Assembly (NCBI GenBank): GCA_029858965.1 | Contig: JAOUDZ010000013.1 | Location: forward strand, 1 to 64,000 | DNA length: 64,000 nucleotides | From: Cyclobacteriaceae bacterium | Lineage (GTDB): Bacteria; Bacteroidota; Bacteroidia; Cytophagales; Cyclobacteriaceae | Direction: 5' to 3' | Part shown: positions 3,615 through 45,405 of the stretch, one piece after another | Layout of the letters: every line of letters starts with the position of its first letter | Numbering within the stretch: the stretch's first letter is position 1 | Program-made: the position numbers and the translations under genes | The notes under the pieces: generated by a model | What the model saw: the letters and a program-made list of their open reading frames with translations, nothing else | What the model was told of the DNA's origin: nothing | The model's database searches: none

Positions 3615-3998
3615 ATGAAGATTCTTGTAGTTCACAGGCAGAATAACACAGTTGATCAAATTAAGTCGGTGCTTAGCAGTTGCAACCCCGTTGTGCGCTA
3701 TGCTGAATCTGGTTTGGATGGGCTCCTAACCTCGCGAATTGAACATTTCGATGTTATAATCTGCGGCACCGACCTGCCTGTCGTCACAGGGCTTGAATTG
3801 GCTAGGTCAATACGAACCAATTCTATAAACCGGAATAGTCCTGTTGTTTTGCTTTCTGATGAAGTTGATGAAAAGATACGGCAGTTGGGCAAATCGCTGG
3901 GTGGAACGACACTTTTGGCAAGGAAAGATCTAGACGTTCAGCTGGCTGGAATTGTCCATAACCAGGTAGCGACAGAATCGAACAAAAACTTGGACTGA
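3615..3998 (+). CDS. Single-domain receiver-like protein
   Basis: ORF with ATG at 3615; DVIICGTDLPVVTGLELARSIR receiver core. Confidence 0.6.
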   Translation: MKILVVHRQNNTVDQIKSVLSSCNPVVRYAESGLDGLLTSRIEHFDVIICGTDLPVVTGLELARSIRTNSINRNSPVVLLSDEVDEKIRQLGKSLGGTTLLARKDLDVQLAGIVHNQVATESNKNLD

Positions 3999-6799: not shown

Positions 6800-6833
6800 T
6801 TGGCAATAATTACGCTATTTTTGGCGTCTATAA
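6800..6833 (+). promoter_or_regulatory. Putative Bacteroidota-type promoter for the MoxR gene
   Basis: TTG at 6800-6802 and TATTTTTG (TAnnTTTG) at 6826-6833, 23-bp spacer; ATG at 6848. Confidence 0.5.
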
Positions 6834-6847
6834 ATAGGAATTGTTGC

Positions 6848-7831
6848 ATGGAAGTAACTATTGAAAAACTGCAGGAACACAAAGAAAAAATAAAACAGGT
6901 TTATGCCGAAATGGCCAAAGTAGTGGTTGGCCAGGAGTACATGGTGAATCGGCTCATGATTGGGTTGTTCACCAATGGGCACGTTTTATTGGAAGGTGTG
7001 CCCGGTCTTGCCAAAACCCTTACAATAAGCACCTTAGCGCAGGTGTTGCACCTTGAATTTCAACGCATTCAATTTACGCCGGATCTCCTTCCTGCTGATC
7101 TGGTTGGTACGATGATTTACAACCAGAAAGACGGGAAGTTTGAAGTGAAGAAAGGACCGATTTTCGCAAACATTATTTTGGCTGATGAAATTAACCGTTC
7201 CCCTGCCAAGGTACAGTCGGCGTTGTTGGAAGCCATGCAGGAAAAGCAAGTGACTATTGGTGAAACGACTTTTACGCTGGATAAGCCATTTCTGGTAATG
7301 GCTACCCAAAACCCCGTTGACCAGGAGGGGACTTATCCTTTGCCAGAAGCACAGGTAGATCGTTTTATGATGAAGGTGTTTGTGGACTATCCCACGAAAG
7401 ACCAGGAAATGGAAATCATGCGGAGGATTTCCAACATGCAATTTGATTTTACCGTGGGCACAGTGCTCAGCAAGGAAGACATTTTTTCCATACGCAATCA
7501 GGTCAACCAGGTTAAAATCTCGGAATCGCTCGAACGCTATATCATTGAGTTGGTATACGCTACACGCAATCCGCTTGATTATAAGTTAAGCGAAGAGGCT
7601 CAATACATACAGTTTGGCGCCTCCCCCCGCGCCAGCATAAATCTTAATCTTACATCCAAGGCGCTAGCTTATATGGACGGCAGAGATTATGTTTTGCCTG
7701 AAGACATCAAGGAGGTGGCGCGTGATGTTCTGAATCACCGGATCATCCTCAACTACGAGGCCGAAGCTGACAATGTGCGCACATCAGATATAATTAAAGC
7801 CATCCTCAATAGGGTGCCTATCAACAAATAG
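6848..7831 (+). CDS. MoxR-family AAA+ ATPase
   Basis: ORF; GHVLLEGVPGLAKT Walker A, IILADEINRSPAKVQSALLEAMQEKQVT, MATQNPVDQEGTYPLPEAQVDRFM. Confidence 0.92.
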   Translation: MEVTIEKLQEHKEKIKQVYAEMAKVVVGQEYMVNRLMIGLFTNGHVLLEGVPGLAKTLTISTLAQVLHLEFQRIQFTPDLLPADLVGTMIYNQKDGKFEVKKGPIFANIILADEINRSPAKVQSALLEAMQEKQVTIGETTFTLDKPFLVMATQNPVDQEGTYPLPEAQVDRFMMKVFVDYPTKDQEMEIMRRISNMQFDFTVGTVLSKEDIFSIRNQVNQVKISESLERYIIELVYATRNPLDYKLSEEAQYIQFGASPRASINLNLTSKALAYMDGRDYVLPEDIKEVARDVLNHRIILNYEAEADNVRTSDIIKAILNRVPINK

Positions 7832-7998: not shown

Positions 7999-8054
7999 TT
8001 AACAATTTGGTAACAAATGCGTAGGCATGAAGTAATATTATAGGGAGACCTTTG
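7999..8054 (+). promoter_or_regulatory. Promoter with four 11-bp-phased direct repeats (Pho-box-like) upstream of the TonB receptor
   Basis: TTAACAatttg GTAACAaatgc GTAGGCatgaa GTAATAttata at 7999/8010/8021/8032, then gaccTTTG ending 8054; ATG 8072. Confidence 0.6.
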
Positions 8055-8071
8055 CATCAAATTAAATTCAT

Positions 8072-10915
8072 ATGATGCGAAGATTACTTTTGTCGCTATT
8101 TGCGCTCTCGGTTTCCCTCAATGTTTTCGCCCAAGTGGGCACCATTAAGGGAAATGTTAAAGACGCTTCAACAGGAGAAGGTATTATTGGCGCCAATGTA
8201 TATATCGCCGGTACTACACAAGGAGCAAGTGTGGATATAAATGGTGATTTCGAAATATCCAATATAAAGGCTGGCAATCACGACCTTGTATTGTCATTCA
8301 TTTCCTACAAAACAGATACGCTCAAAAACGTTACTGTTTATCCGGATCAAACCACAGTCGTCAACCATAAAATGGTGGAGGAAAGTCAGCAACTCACGGA
8401 AGTTGTTGTGTCTGGCACTAAAATTACGAATACGGATTACGCAGTAATCACCGAGCTCAGAAAAAATGATTTGGTCGCTGTGGGAATTTCATCCCAACAG
8501 ATCTCGATGTCACAAGACAGGGATGCCGCCCAGGTGCTGAAGCGATTGCCCGGCGTAACAATAGTTAATAATCGTTTTGTGAATGTACGGGGATTGAGTG
8601 AACGATACAGTACGGTTATGCTTAATGGTGTAATTGCTCCGAGCTCTGAAATCGACTCGAAGGCTTTTGCGTTTGATATGATTCCAAGCAGCATGCTTGA
8701 TAGAATGCTTGTTTATAAATCGGGTTCTCCCGAACTCCCAGGAGAATTTGCGGGAGCGGATATCAGTATCTACACAAAAAGTGTGGTGGAAGAAAATGCA
8801 TTGACACTTTCTGTATCGGGAAGTTTCCGGCCTGGCACAACGGGTAAAAATGTAGCCCTTGGACAGGAGAAAGGGCGGATGGATTGGTTGGGCATGGATG
8901 ATGGTACGCGGCAATTACCCGATAAATTTCCAAATGTAAACCTGCGGACCCTATCGCTTTCAGATCCAAGTGAGCAAAACAAATTGGTCGGTGCTACAAG
9001 AATGTTACCAAATACGTGGGGCACCAGAAACTTAAATGCATCTCCTGATTTCAGGGCGAATTTGGATTTCTCCAGGAGTATACGGATAGGTGGGATGAGA
9101 TTAGACAATATCACCTCACTTAGCTACACGCAGACGAACCAACTTCTGGAGTTAAGCCAGAATTACTACGATGTTTTCTCCGAGGCTGGACAAAAAAGCA
9201 CTCCAAGATACAGATACAACGATGTCAGGTTTACGCAGACCAACAGGGTGGGGGCAGTTGCTAATTTTACATTGACTATTAGTCCATCCAACAGAATTGA
9301 ATTCAGAAATTTTTATAATCAACAAGGACAGAACCAATCAACGCAGCGCACCGGAACCGAGGATGCACTTGGCTATGATGTTAAGAACCAGGCTTTAAAT
9401 TATTTTTCGAGAAGTCTTTACGCTGGGCAATTATCTGGTAAGCACAGCTTGTCTGACGCTGTTAATTTTACCTGGATTTTTGGTTACAACAATACAACGG
9501 CCAATCAACCTGATTACCGCAGGATTCGGTCTCAACGATCCATTGGGACAAACGATCCCTTTGCTATTGTGATTCCCCCATCTGCAAGTTCATTTGATGC
9601 GGGCAGGTTCTATTCAAACCTGAATGAGCAAACGTATTCTGCTGCCGGTAATTTAGAAATCAAACTAAATCCACAAATGGACCCTGACAGGCAATCAAAG
9701 ATAATTGCAGGATACTATTTGGAGCAAAAAGACAGGGTATTTGATGCCAGATGGTTCTCAAACAAATGGAAAAATACCAATGAAATTGATAATAGCTTGT
9801 TGTTACAGCCTTTCGATGAGGTTTTTGTCAAGGAAAATATGGGGACCAAGTTCATCCTGGATGAAGGAACTAACGTTGGTGGAGGCGCAAATGCTGTAAG
9901 CGGTAGTTACGACCGTTATGATGGAGACAACCGATTGTTGGCAGGGTATGCAGGAATTGTAACCCCTTTTGCTGACAAGTTCAGACTCAACGCAGGCTTG
10001 CGCCTTGAGAACAATGTTCAGAAAATTTATGTCTATGATGAGAACGGAACCAGACTGAATGCTACGAATAGCCCACTTACAGTACCAATGCCTTTTCTGA
10101 ATCTTACATATAACATTACCAGCAAGGTGTTGATGAGGCTTGCATACAGTAAAACAGTTAACAGGCCTGTGTTTCGTGAACTAGCTCCCTTTAATTTCTA
10201 CGACTTTGATAGAAATGCTGATGTGAGTGGTAATAAGAATTTGAAGACTGCAAAAATTGACAATGTGGATTTGTCTTGGGAATTGTATCCTTCAAAGGCA
10301 GAAAAGATTTCTTTTGGCGTTTTTTATAAGAACTTCAAGGATCCGATTGAACAAGTTCTCAGACCGGGCTCTAACCTAATTTATAATTATGAAAATGCAG
10401 ACAAGGCCACCAGCTATGGTGTGGAAGCAGAAATTCGAAAATCATTGGAAAACGTTGGTTCATTATTTTTCAGAAAATTAACACTGGTTTTCAACGGTGC
10501 GCTGATCAAGAGCCAGATATCACTGCCTGCCAGTCTCAGCAACCTTGACCACAACAGAGCCATGCAAGGTCAGTCTCCTTATGTAGCAAATGCAAGTGTT
10601 TACTATAGTGATTATGAGAACGGGCTGCAGGTCAGCGTTCAGTATAATGTTTATGGCAAGCGGATTTTCGCTGTCGGTGATAAGGACTCCAATGCGACAC
10701 AGTATGAGATGCCTCGAAATCAGATAGACCTCACATTTTCAAAGCGTCTTTCACAACATTTCGAGCTGAAGTTTGGCATACAGGACATCCTGAATCAGGA
10801 ATACAGACTCATACAAGATTCTAATCGAGACAAAAAAATAACCAAGGTGGATGAATCCATACAAAGCTACAAATGGGGACAGTATACAACGCTTGGTATT
10901 GTCTGGAAACTTTAA
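8072..10915 (+). CDS. TonB-dependent receptor with N-terminal carboxypeptidase-regulatory-like domain
   Basis: ORF; GTIKGNVKDASTGEGIIGANVYIAGT, plug RDAAQVLKRLPGVTIVNNRFVNVRGLSERYSTVMLNG, barrel ending in hydrophobic/aromatic GIVWKL. Confidence 0.9.
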   Translation: MMRRLLLSLFALSVSLNVFAQVGTIKGNVKDASTGEGIIGANVYIAGTTQGASVDINGDFEISNIKAGNHDLVLSFISYKTDTLKNVTVYPDQTTVVNHKMVEESQQLTEVVVSGTKITNTDYAVITELRKNDLVAVGISSQQISMSQDRDAAQVLKRLPGVTIVNNRFVNVRGLSERYSTVMLNGVIAPSSEIDSKAFAFDMIPSSMLDRMLVYKSGSPELPGEFAGADISIYTKSVVEENALTLSVSGSFRPGTTGKNVALGQEKGRMDWLGMDDGTRQLPDKFPNVNLRTLSLSDPSEQNKLVGATRMLPNTWGTRNLNASPDFRANLDFSRSIRIGGMRLDNITSLSYTQTNQLLELSQNYYDVFSEAGQKSTPRYRYNDVRFTQTNRVGAVANFTLTISPSNRIEFRNFYNQQGQNQSTQRTGTEDALGYDVKNQALNYFSRSLYAGQLSGKHSLSDAVNFTWIFGYNNTTANQPDYRRIRSQRSIGTNDPFAIVIPPSASSFDAGRFYSNLNEQTYSAAGNLEIKLNPQMDPDRQSKIIAGYYLEQKDRVFDARWFSNKWKNTNEIDNSLLLQPFDEVFVKENMGTKFILDEGTNVGGGANAVSGSYDRYDGDNRLLAGYAGIVTPFADKFRLNAGLRLENNVQKIYVYDENGTRLNATNSPLTVPMPFLNLTYNITSKVLMRLAYSKTVNRPVFRELAPFNFYDFDRNADVSGNKNLKTAKIDNVDLSWELYPSKAEKISFGVFYKNFKDPIEQVLRPGSNLIYNYENADKATSYGVEAEIRKSLENVGSLFFRKLTLVFNGALIKSQISLPASLSNLDHNRAMQGQSPYVANASVYYSDYENGLQVSVQYNVYGKRIFAVGDKDSNATQYEMPRNQIDLTFSKRLSQHFELKFGIQDILNQEYRLIQDSNRDKKITKVDESIQSYKWGQYTTLGIVWKL

Positions 10916-11086: not shown

Positions 11087-12775
11087 ATGAAAAAACTAGC
11101 ACTTCAGTTTGCCTTTACGACGCTCTTTGCTTTGCCTTTTATATTTTCTTCTTGTTCCACTGATGAGGCAACGCCAGACGGTCCAACTGTAACTGCGCCG
11201 TCATCTATTACAGATGTACAAGTGGGAACTTCGACTGACATTACATTCAGTGTTACTACCCCGGGTGGCTATGATTTCAGTACTGCCTTTGCTATTAACG
11301 GGACGGCGTCTATTAAATCAGAACCCGCCGCCGGTGAGACATCAGGTTCGGTTGTCGTGACCTTTACTGCCGGGAATAACCAGGGTGCTGGTTCTGTAAT
11401 TCTGAGTACTACAGATGCAAATGCGAAAACTAATCAGGGGACTGCAGTAATGAATGTCACTGAAGCGGCGGTTGCAGCTCCTGTTGAAGTGACAGGACCC
11501 ATCACTGCAAATACAACCTGGACGGCTGACAAAAAATACATATTGAAGGGTAACGTCTATGTTCAGTCTCCTGCAGAACTTACGATAGAGCCCGGGACAA
11601 TTATTTTTGGAGACAAACTGACAAAGGGTGCATTAGTTATTAATCGCGGCGCCAAAATTCACGCAATAGGAACATCAACGAAGCCTATTGTCTTTACTTC
11701 TGCGCAACCAAAGTCTTTCCGAAACTATGGTGACTGGGGAGGTGTTGTATTGCTTGGGAAAGCCGCTAACAACCAATCTACAGACCAACTGATTGAAGGC
11801 ATTTCAGATCCAAATGGGGAAAATGGAATTTATGGCGGAAGTACAGATGATGATAACACCGGGGAGTTTCAATACGTCCGTATTGAATTTGCTGGTATTG
11901 CGTTGTCTAACAATAATGAACTAAATGGTCTTACTTTTGGCAGCGTTGGCAGTGCGACAAAAGTGGATCATATTCAGGTTTCCTACTCCGGTGATGATTC
12001 TTATGAATGGTTTGGTGGAACCGTAAATACGACGCACCTTATTGCGTACAGGGGCTGGGACGATGAATTTGATACCGATTTTGGATATAGCGGTTTCAAC
12101 CAGTTCTTGGTTTCATTCCGTGATCCGAACGTCGCTGATATATCTGGATCCAATGGGTTGGAGTCAGACAACAATGCACAGGGTGATACTAAAACGCCAC
12201 AAACTTCAGCTACGTTTGCCAATGTTACTTTTTTTGGCCCTTTTATGTACGCCAGTCTTTCCTCCGGTAATCTGAACGCTGGAAATTTAAGCGCAAACTA
12301 TAAGCGTGGCGCGCACATTCGCAGAAACTCGGCATTAAAGATCTATAATTGCGTGTTTGCCGGAGCAAATATTGACGGGATTTTCTTCGATCAAACCAGC
12401 GGATCCGCAGTGTTTAAGGGAAATTTTGTTGGCCGAATTACGGGCAACGCTCTGCCTACTCCTGTACCTAATGCGGGTGGTGGAACAGTATATGATGCCT
12501 CCGGATTTGCAACCGATAACGTGATCGCTAACCCTTCTAATGCAGTCGATTTGTCAGCGCTCTTTGCAGGATCTGCGAACAACCTTTGGTCGATAGCCTC
12601 TCCAGAAGCACTCTTGGCTCCGGGATCAGATTTGCTTACAAGTGCAGTGGTGACACCAGCTTTCCCGGATGGTTTTGGATTCACAACAGTAGACTACAGC
12701 GGCGCATTTGACGATACCAACGATTGGGCAAACGACACCTGGACCAATTACGATCCGAACAATACGGACTACTAA
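11087..12775 (+). CDS. Large surface-type lipoprotein with parallel beta-helix-like character
   Basis: ORF; lipobox-like LPFIFSSC followed by STDEAT; ELTIEPGTIIFGDKLTKGALVINRGAKIHAIGTSTKPIVFTSA right-handed-helix-like segments. Confidence 0.75.
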   Translation: MKKLALQFAFTTLFALPFIFSSCSTDEATPDGPTVTAPSSITDVQVGTSTDITFSVTTPGGYDFSTAFAINGTASIKSEPAAGETSGSVVVTFTAGNNQGAGSVILSTTDANAKTNQGTAVMNVTEAAVAAPVEVTGPITANTTWTADKKYILKGNVYVQSPAELTIEPGTIIFGDKLTKGALVINRGAKIHAIGTSTKPIVFTSAQPKSFRNYGDWGGVVLLGKAANNQSTDQLIEGISDPNGENGIYGGSTDDDNTGEFQYVRIEFAGIALSNNNELNGLTFGSVGSATKVDHIQVSYSGDDSYEWFGGTVNTTHLIAYRGWDDEFDTDFGYSGFNQFLVSFRDPNVADISGSNGLESDNNAQGDTKTPQTSATFANVTFFGPFMYASLSSGNLNAGNLSANYKRGAHIRRNSALKIYNCVFAGANIDGIFFDQTSGSAVFKGNFVGRITGNALPTPVPNAGGGTVYDASGFATDNVIANPSNAVDLSALFAGSANNLWSIASPEALLAPGSDLLTSAVVTPAFPDGFGFTTVDYSGAFDDTNDWANDTWTNYDPNNTDY

Positions 12776-12862: not shown

Positions 12863-13432
12863 ATGAAAATAGTACAGTTTTCACTTTGCTTGTTTTTGTT
12901 ATTGTGTGCGCACGGTTGCAAGAAAGCATTGCACAACCCTGACACCTGTTTTTCGAAAGAACAGCAAGCTTCCATTATTGCACAAACAGTTCGCTATGCA
13001 GAAAGGCTACCACCGGCGGCAACTCATGAAACAAAGTTCAATGCCGAATTTGATTGGTATTACAGCCTGGCAGTGGAAGGATATGATTTCAGGGCGTGCT
13101 CACCAGAACTGGATAGTACTTACTACTTTCTAATGACCCGCAAGGCCAGAAGCATATGGCCCGCAAGGGAGGCTATTGGCGGAAGACTTAAAGTAGGCCC
13201 GCAGAATAAAGTGGCTGGATACGAGGAAATTTTCCGAACTTGGAAAATGGCGGAGGACAGCCTCAACAGCCGTGCGTTCGAACTATTCGATTTGATGATT
13301 ACCGGTGAGGATTTAACGCGTTTCCAGACCAAATACCAGGGCGATCGCTACATAGAATTTCCCGACGAACGTTTTTATTTCGACAAACAATCCAGGCGCT
13401 GGCGAGATCGTGAGTTGGACAAGATGCAATAA
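12863..13432 (+). CDS. Hypothetical lipoprotein
   Basis: ORF; leader MKIVQFSLCLFLLLCAHGCKK with lipobox-like cysteine. Confidence 0.6.
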   Translation: MKIVQFSLCLFLLLCAHGCKKALHNPDTCFSKEQQASIIAQTVRYAERLPPAATHETKFNAEFDWYYSLAVEGYDFRACSPELDSTYYFLMTRKARSIWPAREAIGGRLKVGPQNKVAGYEEIFRTWKMAEDSLNSRAFELFDLMITGEDLTRFQTKYQGDRYIEFPDERFYFDKQSRRWRDRELDKMQ

Positions 13433-43979: not shown

Positions 43980-44810
43980 CTAGCGCATAGCCGTTGGATT
44001 GGACGGTTGGTTGCGAATGGCGTAAATGATCTGCAGATACTTTTCCTTGGTAGCAGAATCCAAGTCACTGTCTAATACAGTATGTTGAATGAGTTGTGAA
44101 AATGCCTCAATCCGTGGTGATTGGTACAATTCTATGGCCTTGCCTAGCTCAATAATAGAGGACGTCAACTGATGTTGATTATACGCAGAGACAGAAAGAT
44201 TGTAATGCAGCAATCCAACTACCTGGTCAAGGTTTACTTCGTTAAATAGATCAAAATCGTATAGGTAATAGGTCTTATCGGAATCTCTATTTTGATTCTT
44301 ATTTTCTTTGTATTGTGCAATTCGATTTTCGATTGAACCCGCATTACTAACAAATCCATTTACTGGATCAGTGGTCTCAAATAGGACATTACCCTGCTCC
44401 GTCTGTGCTATCAGGAATATGTGATAATTAGTTTCAATCATCTGGTAGTCAATATCAAAATGATCCAAAATAAGGGCATAGAGTGCTGTTCCGGTAAGGC
44501 AATTGTATGTGCCCGAATTCAATATTTCTCCAAATGTTGGATAATCGGCATAGCGCTTCAGGAAAAGTTGATGCGTTTTGACAAAAACAAACTCCAGGAA
44601 ATCCTTTTCCCGTTTGAACGATTTCTTCTTGCCTTCCAGTTTTTCTACAAAGCTCAAAAACCGCTGTGTGGAAGGCTGCTGCCCATCCGTTTCGCTGTAT
44701 AGCTTAAGATAATAGTCAACTTTGGAAGTAGGCTGAATAGCAACTAATCCAGCCTGGCCCGAGACGAGTATTGGCAAAAGAAGGAAAAAGGCTATGATCC
44801 GAAATCTCAT
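43980..44810 (-). CDS. Secreted transglutaminase-like hypothetical protein
   Basis: ORF; signal peptide; GTYNCLTGTALYALILDHFDIDYQMIET...NYHIFL Cys/His layout. Confidence 0.6.
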   Translation of the reverse strand: MRFRIIAFFLLLPILVSGQAGLVAIQPTSKVDYYLKLYSETDGQQPSTQRFLSFVEKLEGKKKSFKREKDFLEFVFVKTHQLFLKRYADYPTFGEILNSGTYNCLTGTALYALILDHFDIDYQMIETNYHIFLIAQTEQGNVLFETTDPVNGFVSNAGSIENRIAQYKENKNQNRDSDKTYYLYDFDLFNEVNLDQVVGLLHYNLSVSAYNQHQLTSSIIELGKAIELYQSPRIEAFSQLIQHTVLDSDLDSATKEKYLQIIYAIRNQPSNPTAMR

Positions 44811-45405
44811 GTTAAGTTAATATTAACTTAATGTTAATAAAGATAACATATAGATAACAAAACCCAATAAAAAAGTAACATTTACGTAATATTCATCGCT
44901 AAATCGCAGGTTTTGCAGCCCAGCGGCTAAAAAGAATCAAAGAATAGAGACGATTAGGCCATAAATACTGCCTTTCGAATGCTTCAGGCCAGCTTGGAAG
45001 TATTTCACCGGTTATTCCACCCTCGAACTATGCCTCGTTACTGCGCCAAAGGGCTCTTTATTAGAGTCGATGAGCACAACAAACTCACCAGTATCATATC
45101 GAAAACCACTTGTTTTATTTTATATGACGGTATTTGGAGTCATCAAAATGGCGGTTTCCAATTCGCCCATTGCTATCTACCTTTTGGTGGTGTGGATAAC
45201 TGGGGTATATAGCAGATCATACAGGTATCTGGGTCAGCCGAGCATAATGCCAGTAGGACGTATAACATGCATAAACATCTTCTGCACCCAAGCTGCACCG
45301 GCAATAATATTGACGCCTTCTTCAGCATATCTCAAATAGTCTTTAGACAGCTTGCTGGAGATTTAACGTGCCTGTGGCGTTAACCAATTTTCAGGTACTC
45401 TTTAC

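Follow-up and report, generated by a model that had tools for sequence, protein, structure and literature searches.

DNA at positions 7999-8054 of the 64,000-nucleotide stretch analysed here (the window), from a bacterium of the family Cyclobacteriaceae, is with high probability a Pho-box-type operator joined to a -7 promoter box, serving a receptor-lipoprotein operon and driven under phosphate shortage by a PhoB-like regulator encoded elsewhere in the same genome (G000:C128). In this bacterium, and in much of its phylum, the repeated signal very probably acts as the switch for phosphate starvation, since it is also found in front of phosphate transporters, genes for recycling membrane lipids and the gene of the likely master regulator.

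Letters and geometry of the operator

The initial annotation had described four units phased at 11 bp, starting at 7999, 8010, 8021 and 8032, and both letters and coordinates are exact: box 1 (TTAACAATTTG, 7999-8009), box 2 (GTAACAAATGC, 8010-8020, 11 bp 3' of box 1), unit 3 (GTAGGCATGAA, 8021-8031) and box 4 (GTAATATTATA, 8032-8042, 22 bp after box 2), all on the plus strand. Three of these are TAAY-type boxes in exact 11-bp register (TTAACA at 7999, GTAACA at 8010, GTAATA at 8032), so that TAAY boxes stand at 0, +11 and +33; the TAAY core of box 1 is near-invariant in orthologous promoters. The reading of all four as direct repeats fails at the degenerate unit 3, whose hexamer GTAGGC (8021) is without a TAAY core and is matched by [AT]CC in relatives. 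The proposed -7 box, GACCTTTG (8047-8054, plus strand), is present, belongs to the TAnnTTTG class and lies at a fixed distance from box 4, with 17 bases left to the receptor ATG (8072); it departs from the consensus at its first base, a deviation common to relatives, in which the box is conserved as (G/C)ACCTTTG. Boxes of this class sit at -12 to -5 (PMC9723704). The receptor transcription start is predicted near 8059, and relative to this predicted start the operator units would span about -60 to -17.

The arrangement is rare in the DNA around it. A four-unit pattern, written to fit the 7999 site, has one match in the window against 0.02 expected, and KTAAYAN5KTAAYAN16KTAAYA matches once in the 5.1-Mb genome (reversed control 0). 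The genome was scanned by such patterns, and a matrix was scored on window positions; built from the promoters of relatives only, this matrix gives the 7999 site 47.7 bits, the runner-up among 127,892 window positions scoring -4.9. A four-element pattern with up to three mismatches finds in the genome only the 7999 site and one weak match (control 3), which points to a small regulon of strict multi-box sites. On the minus strand of the window, at 44810-44891, the start of a gene for a 276-aa secreted protein is directly abutted by three TAAY boxes in 11-bp register, with a GTAACATTTACGTAATA pair close by; this locus showed no TTTG box at the Pho spacing.

An ungapped 55-bp element, roughly TTAACAATTYSRTAACAnnnnCn[AT]CCnnnTSARGTAATATTn7(G/C)ACCTTTG, is common to 42 receptor promoters, the 7999 site included, with constant spacing between box 4 and TTTG. 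Among culturable relatives, Chryseolinea lacunae has the conserved site. When promoters were gathered solely on protein homology, TAAY pairs at spacings of 11, 22 and 33 bp occurred in 37, 31 and 29 of 42 non-redundant receptor promoters, where shuffles give about 1.3 each. The figures for 27 plcP promoters are 26, 16 and 15 (about 1 in shuffles), and the only spacing peaks beyond 11 bp are those at 22 and 33 bp. Loss of the 11-bp phasing in orthologous promoters had been named beforehand as a refuting outcome; the phasing is kept in 37 of the 42.

Boxes bound by PhoP of Bacillus subtilis are repeats of the TTHACA type, spaced by about 11 bp and lying 5' of the -10 element. The operator described here shares with them a near-identical core hexamer (TTAACA), the head-to-tail phasing of 11 bp and a similar placement, and differs in belonging to another phylum, in the -7 TAnnTTTG sigma-factor consensus, in having a TonB receptor operon as its target, and in that one of the four units is swapped for [AT]CC in the family. 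The Escherichia coli Pho box has the letters CTGTCAT and takes the place of the -35 element. It consists of at least two direct repeat units of 11 nucleotides each (PMC4415409). The 11-bp tandem units and the replacement of the -35 element are alike in the two systems, whereas the letters differ, and receptor/lipoprotein pairs are among the downstream genes here. The likeness to Pho boxes and OmpR-family operators, proposed from the letters in the first place, is borne out by the tandem arrangement of the 11-bp direct repeats, by their position over the -35 region with a constant spacing to the core promoter element, and by the phosphate genes downstream.

The receptor operon

The first gene of the operon (8072-10915, plus strand) encodes a TonB-dependent receptor with Pfam matches to CarbopepD_reg_2, Plug and the beta-barrel. 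On the same strand follow a lipoprotein with a predicted beta-helix (11087-12775), likened to the ElpS/FII receptor partners, and a small lipoprotein (12863-13432), probably the third operon gene; neither has a Pfam match. Relatives of the receptor at E <= 1e-100 are found in 67 of 198 family genomes; the larger lipoprotein adjoins the receptor in nearly all relatives inspected, and in several of them the small lipoprotein (42-62% identity) lies 3' of the larger one. The larger lipoprotein has a signal peptide and an invariant Cys23. Its AlphaFold model is all-beta (pLDDT 79.7) and weakly matches family 28 exopolygalacturonase (E 2.5e-5, TM 0.17), which is consistent with, though not proof of, a pectin-lyase-like beta-helix; the likeness to ElpS/FII comes from gene context and the fold model, not from sequence comparison. 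A SusC/SusD (PusCD) pair was considered and rejected, as the receptor scores 56 bits with TIGR04056 against a cut-off of 368; the neighbouring lipoprotein, having no Pfam match, shows no SusD domain that would make it a SusD partner.

The all-beta model and the weak exopolygalacturonase match fit the pectin-lyase-fold lipoproteins that stand beside phosphate-starvation receptors in Flavobacterium johnsoniae (PMC8115612). In that bacterium phosphate depletion strongly induces pairs of a receptor and a pectin-lyase-fold lipoprotein (Fjoh_0545/0546 and Fjoh_3857/3856), together with PlcP and a PF04101 glycosyltransferase (PMC8115612). The loci are likened by gene content, namely a TonB-dependent receptor with a pectin-lyase-fold lipoprotein, and the taxonomic order differs (Cytophagales here); by this analogy the receptor operon may likewise be induced by phosphate shortage (PMC8115612). 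We found no description of an operator for the F. johnsoniae low-phosphate receptor/lipoprotein loci in the open literature searched.

Directly 5' of the receptor, at 6800-7831 of the window, lies a gene for a MoxR-type AAA ATPase. In Riemerella the moxR/Bat operon is reported as a direct target of PhoP (PMC9603813).

Recurrence in the genome, the family and the phylum

The exact box1-linker-box2 core has two copies in this genome, one in the receptor promoter and one in the promoter of a plcP-like gene, whose product, if the gene call is right, would recycle phosphate from membrane phospholipids. This second promoter has degenerate boxes 3 and 4, with TACCTTTA for its -7 box. The gene 3' of plcP encodes a glycosyltransferase with a PF04101 match, the same family as phosphate-induced Fjoh_0541. 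Box pairs with one mismatch give 13 matches in the genome (15 in total, against 10 in the control), mostly inside other genes, and these were left aside except for the pair in the phoB-like promoter discussed below. A marker search of this genome found no PstB over the cut-off; 'pst' is therefore unusable as a test here, with no classical pst promoter available. The genome scan for phosphate genes that had been suggested at the outset, widened to the phylum, placed the element 5' of plcP in this genome and of pstS, pstC, PiT and phosphate-selective porin genes in others; the refuting outcome named for it, a lack of enrichment upstream of genes, did not occur.

With the box4-to--7 distance built into the pattern, 198 family genomes yield 76 matches against five in the reversed control. 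Downstream of them are an ElpS-type lipoprotein (28 sites), a receptor (22), PlcP (14), and other or no genes (11), one site (G159) having been left out; at several lipoprotein sites the gene order is reversed, the lipoprotein coming first and the receptor second. The receptor and lipoprotein matches are partly expected, because the pattern was derived from receptor promoters; the plcP matches are independent of its source promoters. The PlcP-like protein of the family is a 285-aa metallophosphoesterase, and its assignment rests on Pfam metallophosphoesterase matches, on the adjoining glycosyltransferase and on a published account in which plcP is paired with glycosyltransferases (PMC4796936), matches to LpxH being only weak.

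A search of 396 Bacteroidota genomes, in which the box4-to--7 distance was again part of the pattern, gives 67 sites (control 4). Outside the family the sites precede receptors, phosphate-selective porins (Porin_O_P), glycosyltransferases and PlcP, and also PstS (339 bits with TIGR00975, whose cut-off is 205), a further PstS family, PstC (TIGR02138) and a PHO4/PiT transporter; some precede genes without a clear phosphate link. The third position was left free in the search, and a fourth TAAY box stands there at 41 of the 61 non-family sites and almost never at neighbouring offsets (binomial p about 1e-61 assuming independent sites, which related genomes are not). The likewise free TA of the TAnnTTTG box is present in 38 of the 61. 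Within the family a third TAAY box is seen at one of 56 sites, so the family variant has three boxes, with [AT]CC standing in for the missing one in receptor promoters. These counts would fit a phylum-wide Pho operator of Bacteroidota, made of four TTAACA-type boxes in 11-bp register and locked to a -7 TAnnTTTG box, in which one family swapped the third box for [AT]CC, possibly gaining there a new contact with the polymerase or with a second protein; we hold this wider proposal with even confidence.

Some arrangements outside the family are more elaborate. In another family (L242, L245) two full four-box arrays stand in tandem, about 320 bp apart, 5' of one phosphate-selective porin. In L256, at about 3650-3790, two divergent four-box promoters lie back to back between a metallophosphoesterase and a NeuB-like sialic acid synthase, and in L258 a NeuB-type gene follows a four-box-type site.

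The candidate regulator and the proposed switch

A search of the genome turned up only two OmpR-type DNA-binding proteins (C128 and C155). The initial annotation had noted that no PhoB/PhoR lies in the window, and this is so; a PhoB-like regulator and an adjoining PhoR-like kinase are encoded elsewhere, at C128. The regulator has a canonical recognition helix and occurs in 96 of 99 family genomes. Both members of the pair score under the equivalog cut-offs (for the regulator, 231 against 296 and 225 against 270 with the NCBIfam PhoB models), and the kinase equally resembles PnpS/WalK-type kinases. About 60-80 bp 5' of the PhoB-like gene there is a reversed TTAAGGAATTGTTAA pair (L001 about 2240-2260; G000:C128:15601-15616), kept in 23 of 30 relatives (L168-L176 and others). 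Boxes are thus present, in reverse orientation, at the regulator's own gene, which suggests autoregulation by a different geometry. These boxes, and the gene classes behind the element, lend support from sequence to the idea, raised initially, of a PhoB-like activator and a phosphate signal.

Within the phylum, PhoP of Riemerella anatipestifer binds TTTAACA in DAP-seq and also its own promoter, and its direct targets are not mainly phosphate genes (PMC9603813). It is likened to the present system by phylum, core letters and autoregulation, not by protein comparison; an 11-bp array or a fixed -7 distance was not found in the available part of its description (PMC9603813). PhoB of Bacteroides fragilis binds a 512-bp fragment of the pstC promoter (PMC3547664), a case of a Bacteroidota PhoB controlling phosphate genes, as proposed here; the available part of its description gives no box consensus (PMC3547664). 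No published Pho-box consensus for Bacteroidota was found in the part of the literature that is open, subscription journals being outside the scope of the search.

A PhoB/PhoP-type regulator could also bind these boxes in response mainly to another signal, e.g. envelope or redox stress, the phosphate genes then making up only a portion of a broad regulon. DAP-seq gives hundreds of peaks for PhoP of Riemerella, and the Bat operon is affected in the deletion mutant (PMC9603813); deletion of PhoPR raises pstS mRNA 8-fold (PMC5399024). The C128 regulator is, moreover, more widespread than the receptor. Nevertheless, 64 of the 76 family matches (three boxes with the fixed -7 box) precede a receptor, lipoprotein or plcP, the phylum matches include pstS, pstC, PiT and phosphate-selective porins, and Riemerella PhoPR is reported to be upregulated in phosphate starvation, so that we regard a mainly non-phosphate signal as improbable. 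Mainly because the Riemerella mutants do not behave as plain phosphate mutants (PMC9603813, PMC5399024), we stop short of full confidence that phosphate is the only signal; given the deletion effects and the non-phosphate targets, the Bacteroidota regulator may have a wider role, or one that is in part repressive.

Binding by another OmpR-family regulator is more doubtful still. Both C155 and an orphan PhoB paralog carry OmpR-type DNA-binding domains; the paralog lies 3' of plcP and the glycosyltransferase in several relatives (L227, L228, L229, L230, L231, L232), and phoBR of F. johnsoniae is clustered with a glycosyltransferase gene (PMC8115612). The paralog was rejected as the binder, however, being absent from this genome and degenerate in its DNA-recognition region including the recognition helix; C155 has an adjoining kinase that is built differently, and scores best with PmrA/RppA models; and boxes are found in the C128 gene's own promoter, the one promoter of the two that was inspected. 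Chance arrangement of AT-rich promoter DNA has in its favour that two-box TAAY matches with one mismatch can appear by chance in this DNA (5.5 expected in the window, 12 seen), but it is refuted by the ungapped conservation in 42 promoters, and the phasing statistics, the single genome-wide match and the independent recurrence before phosphate genes make it scarcely credible.

We therefore return to the C128 regulator and phosphate shortage, and infer binding, activation and the kind of substrate as follows. When phosphate runs short, the C128 PhoB-like regulator would be phosphorylated and would occupy the TAAY boxes 5' of the weak -7 box, its copies lined up head-to-tail with the 11-bp phasing, and would recruit RNA polymerase, a task otherwise left to a -33 element. 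The operon of receptor, ElpS/FII-like surface lipoprotein and small lipoprotein would thereby be turned on, and its products presumably capture, at the cell surface, a substrate that contains phosphorus. Expression of plcP and the glycosyltransferase would be activated by this regulator too, and phosphate would then be recycled from membrane phospholipids.

Bacteroidota are major recyclers of phosphorus in soil, on plants and in the sea, and an operator of defined, fixed geometry lets their phosphate regulons be read from genome sequence. It connects an uncharacterised receptor and its surface lipoprotein with the scavenging of phosphorus, and illustrates how promoters without the usual -35 element could be served by an activator of the OmpR type; and as a whole family has lost one box, promoter architecture becomes directly testable.
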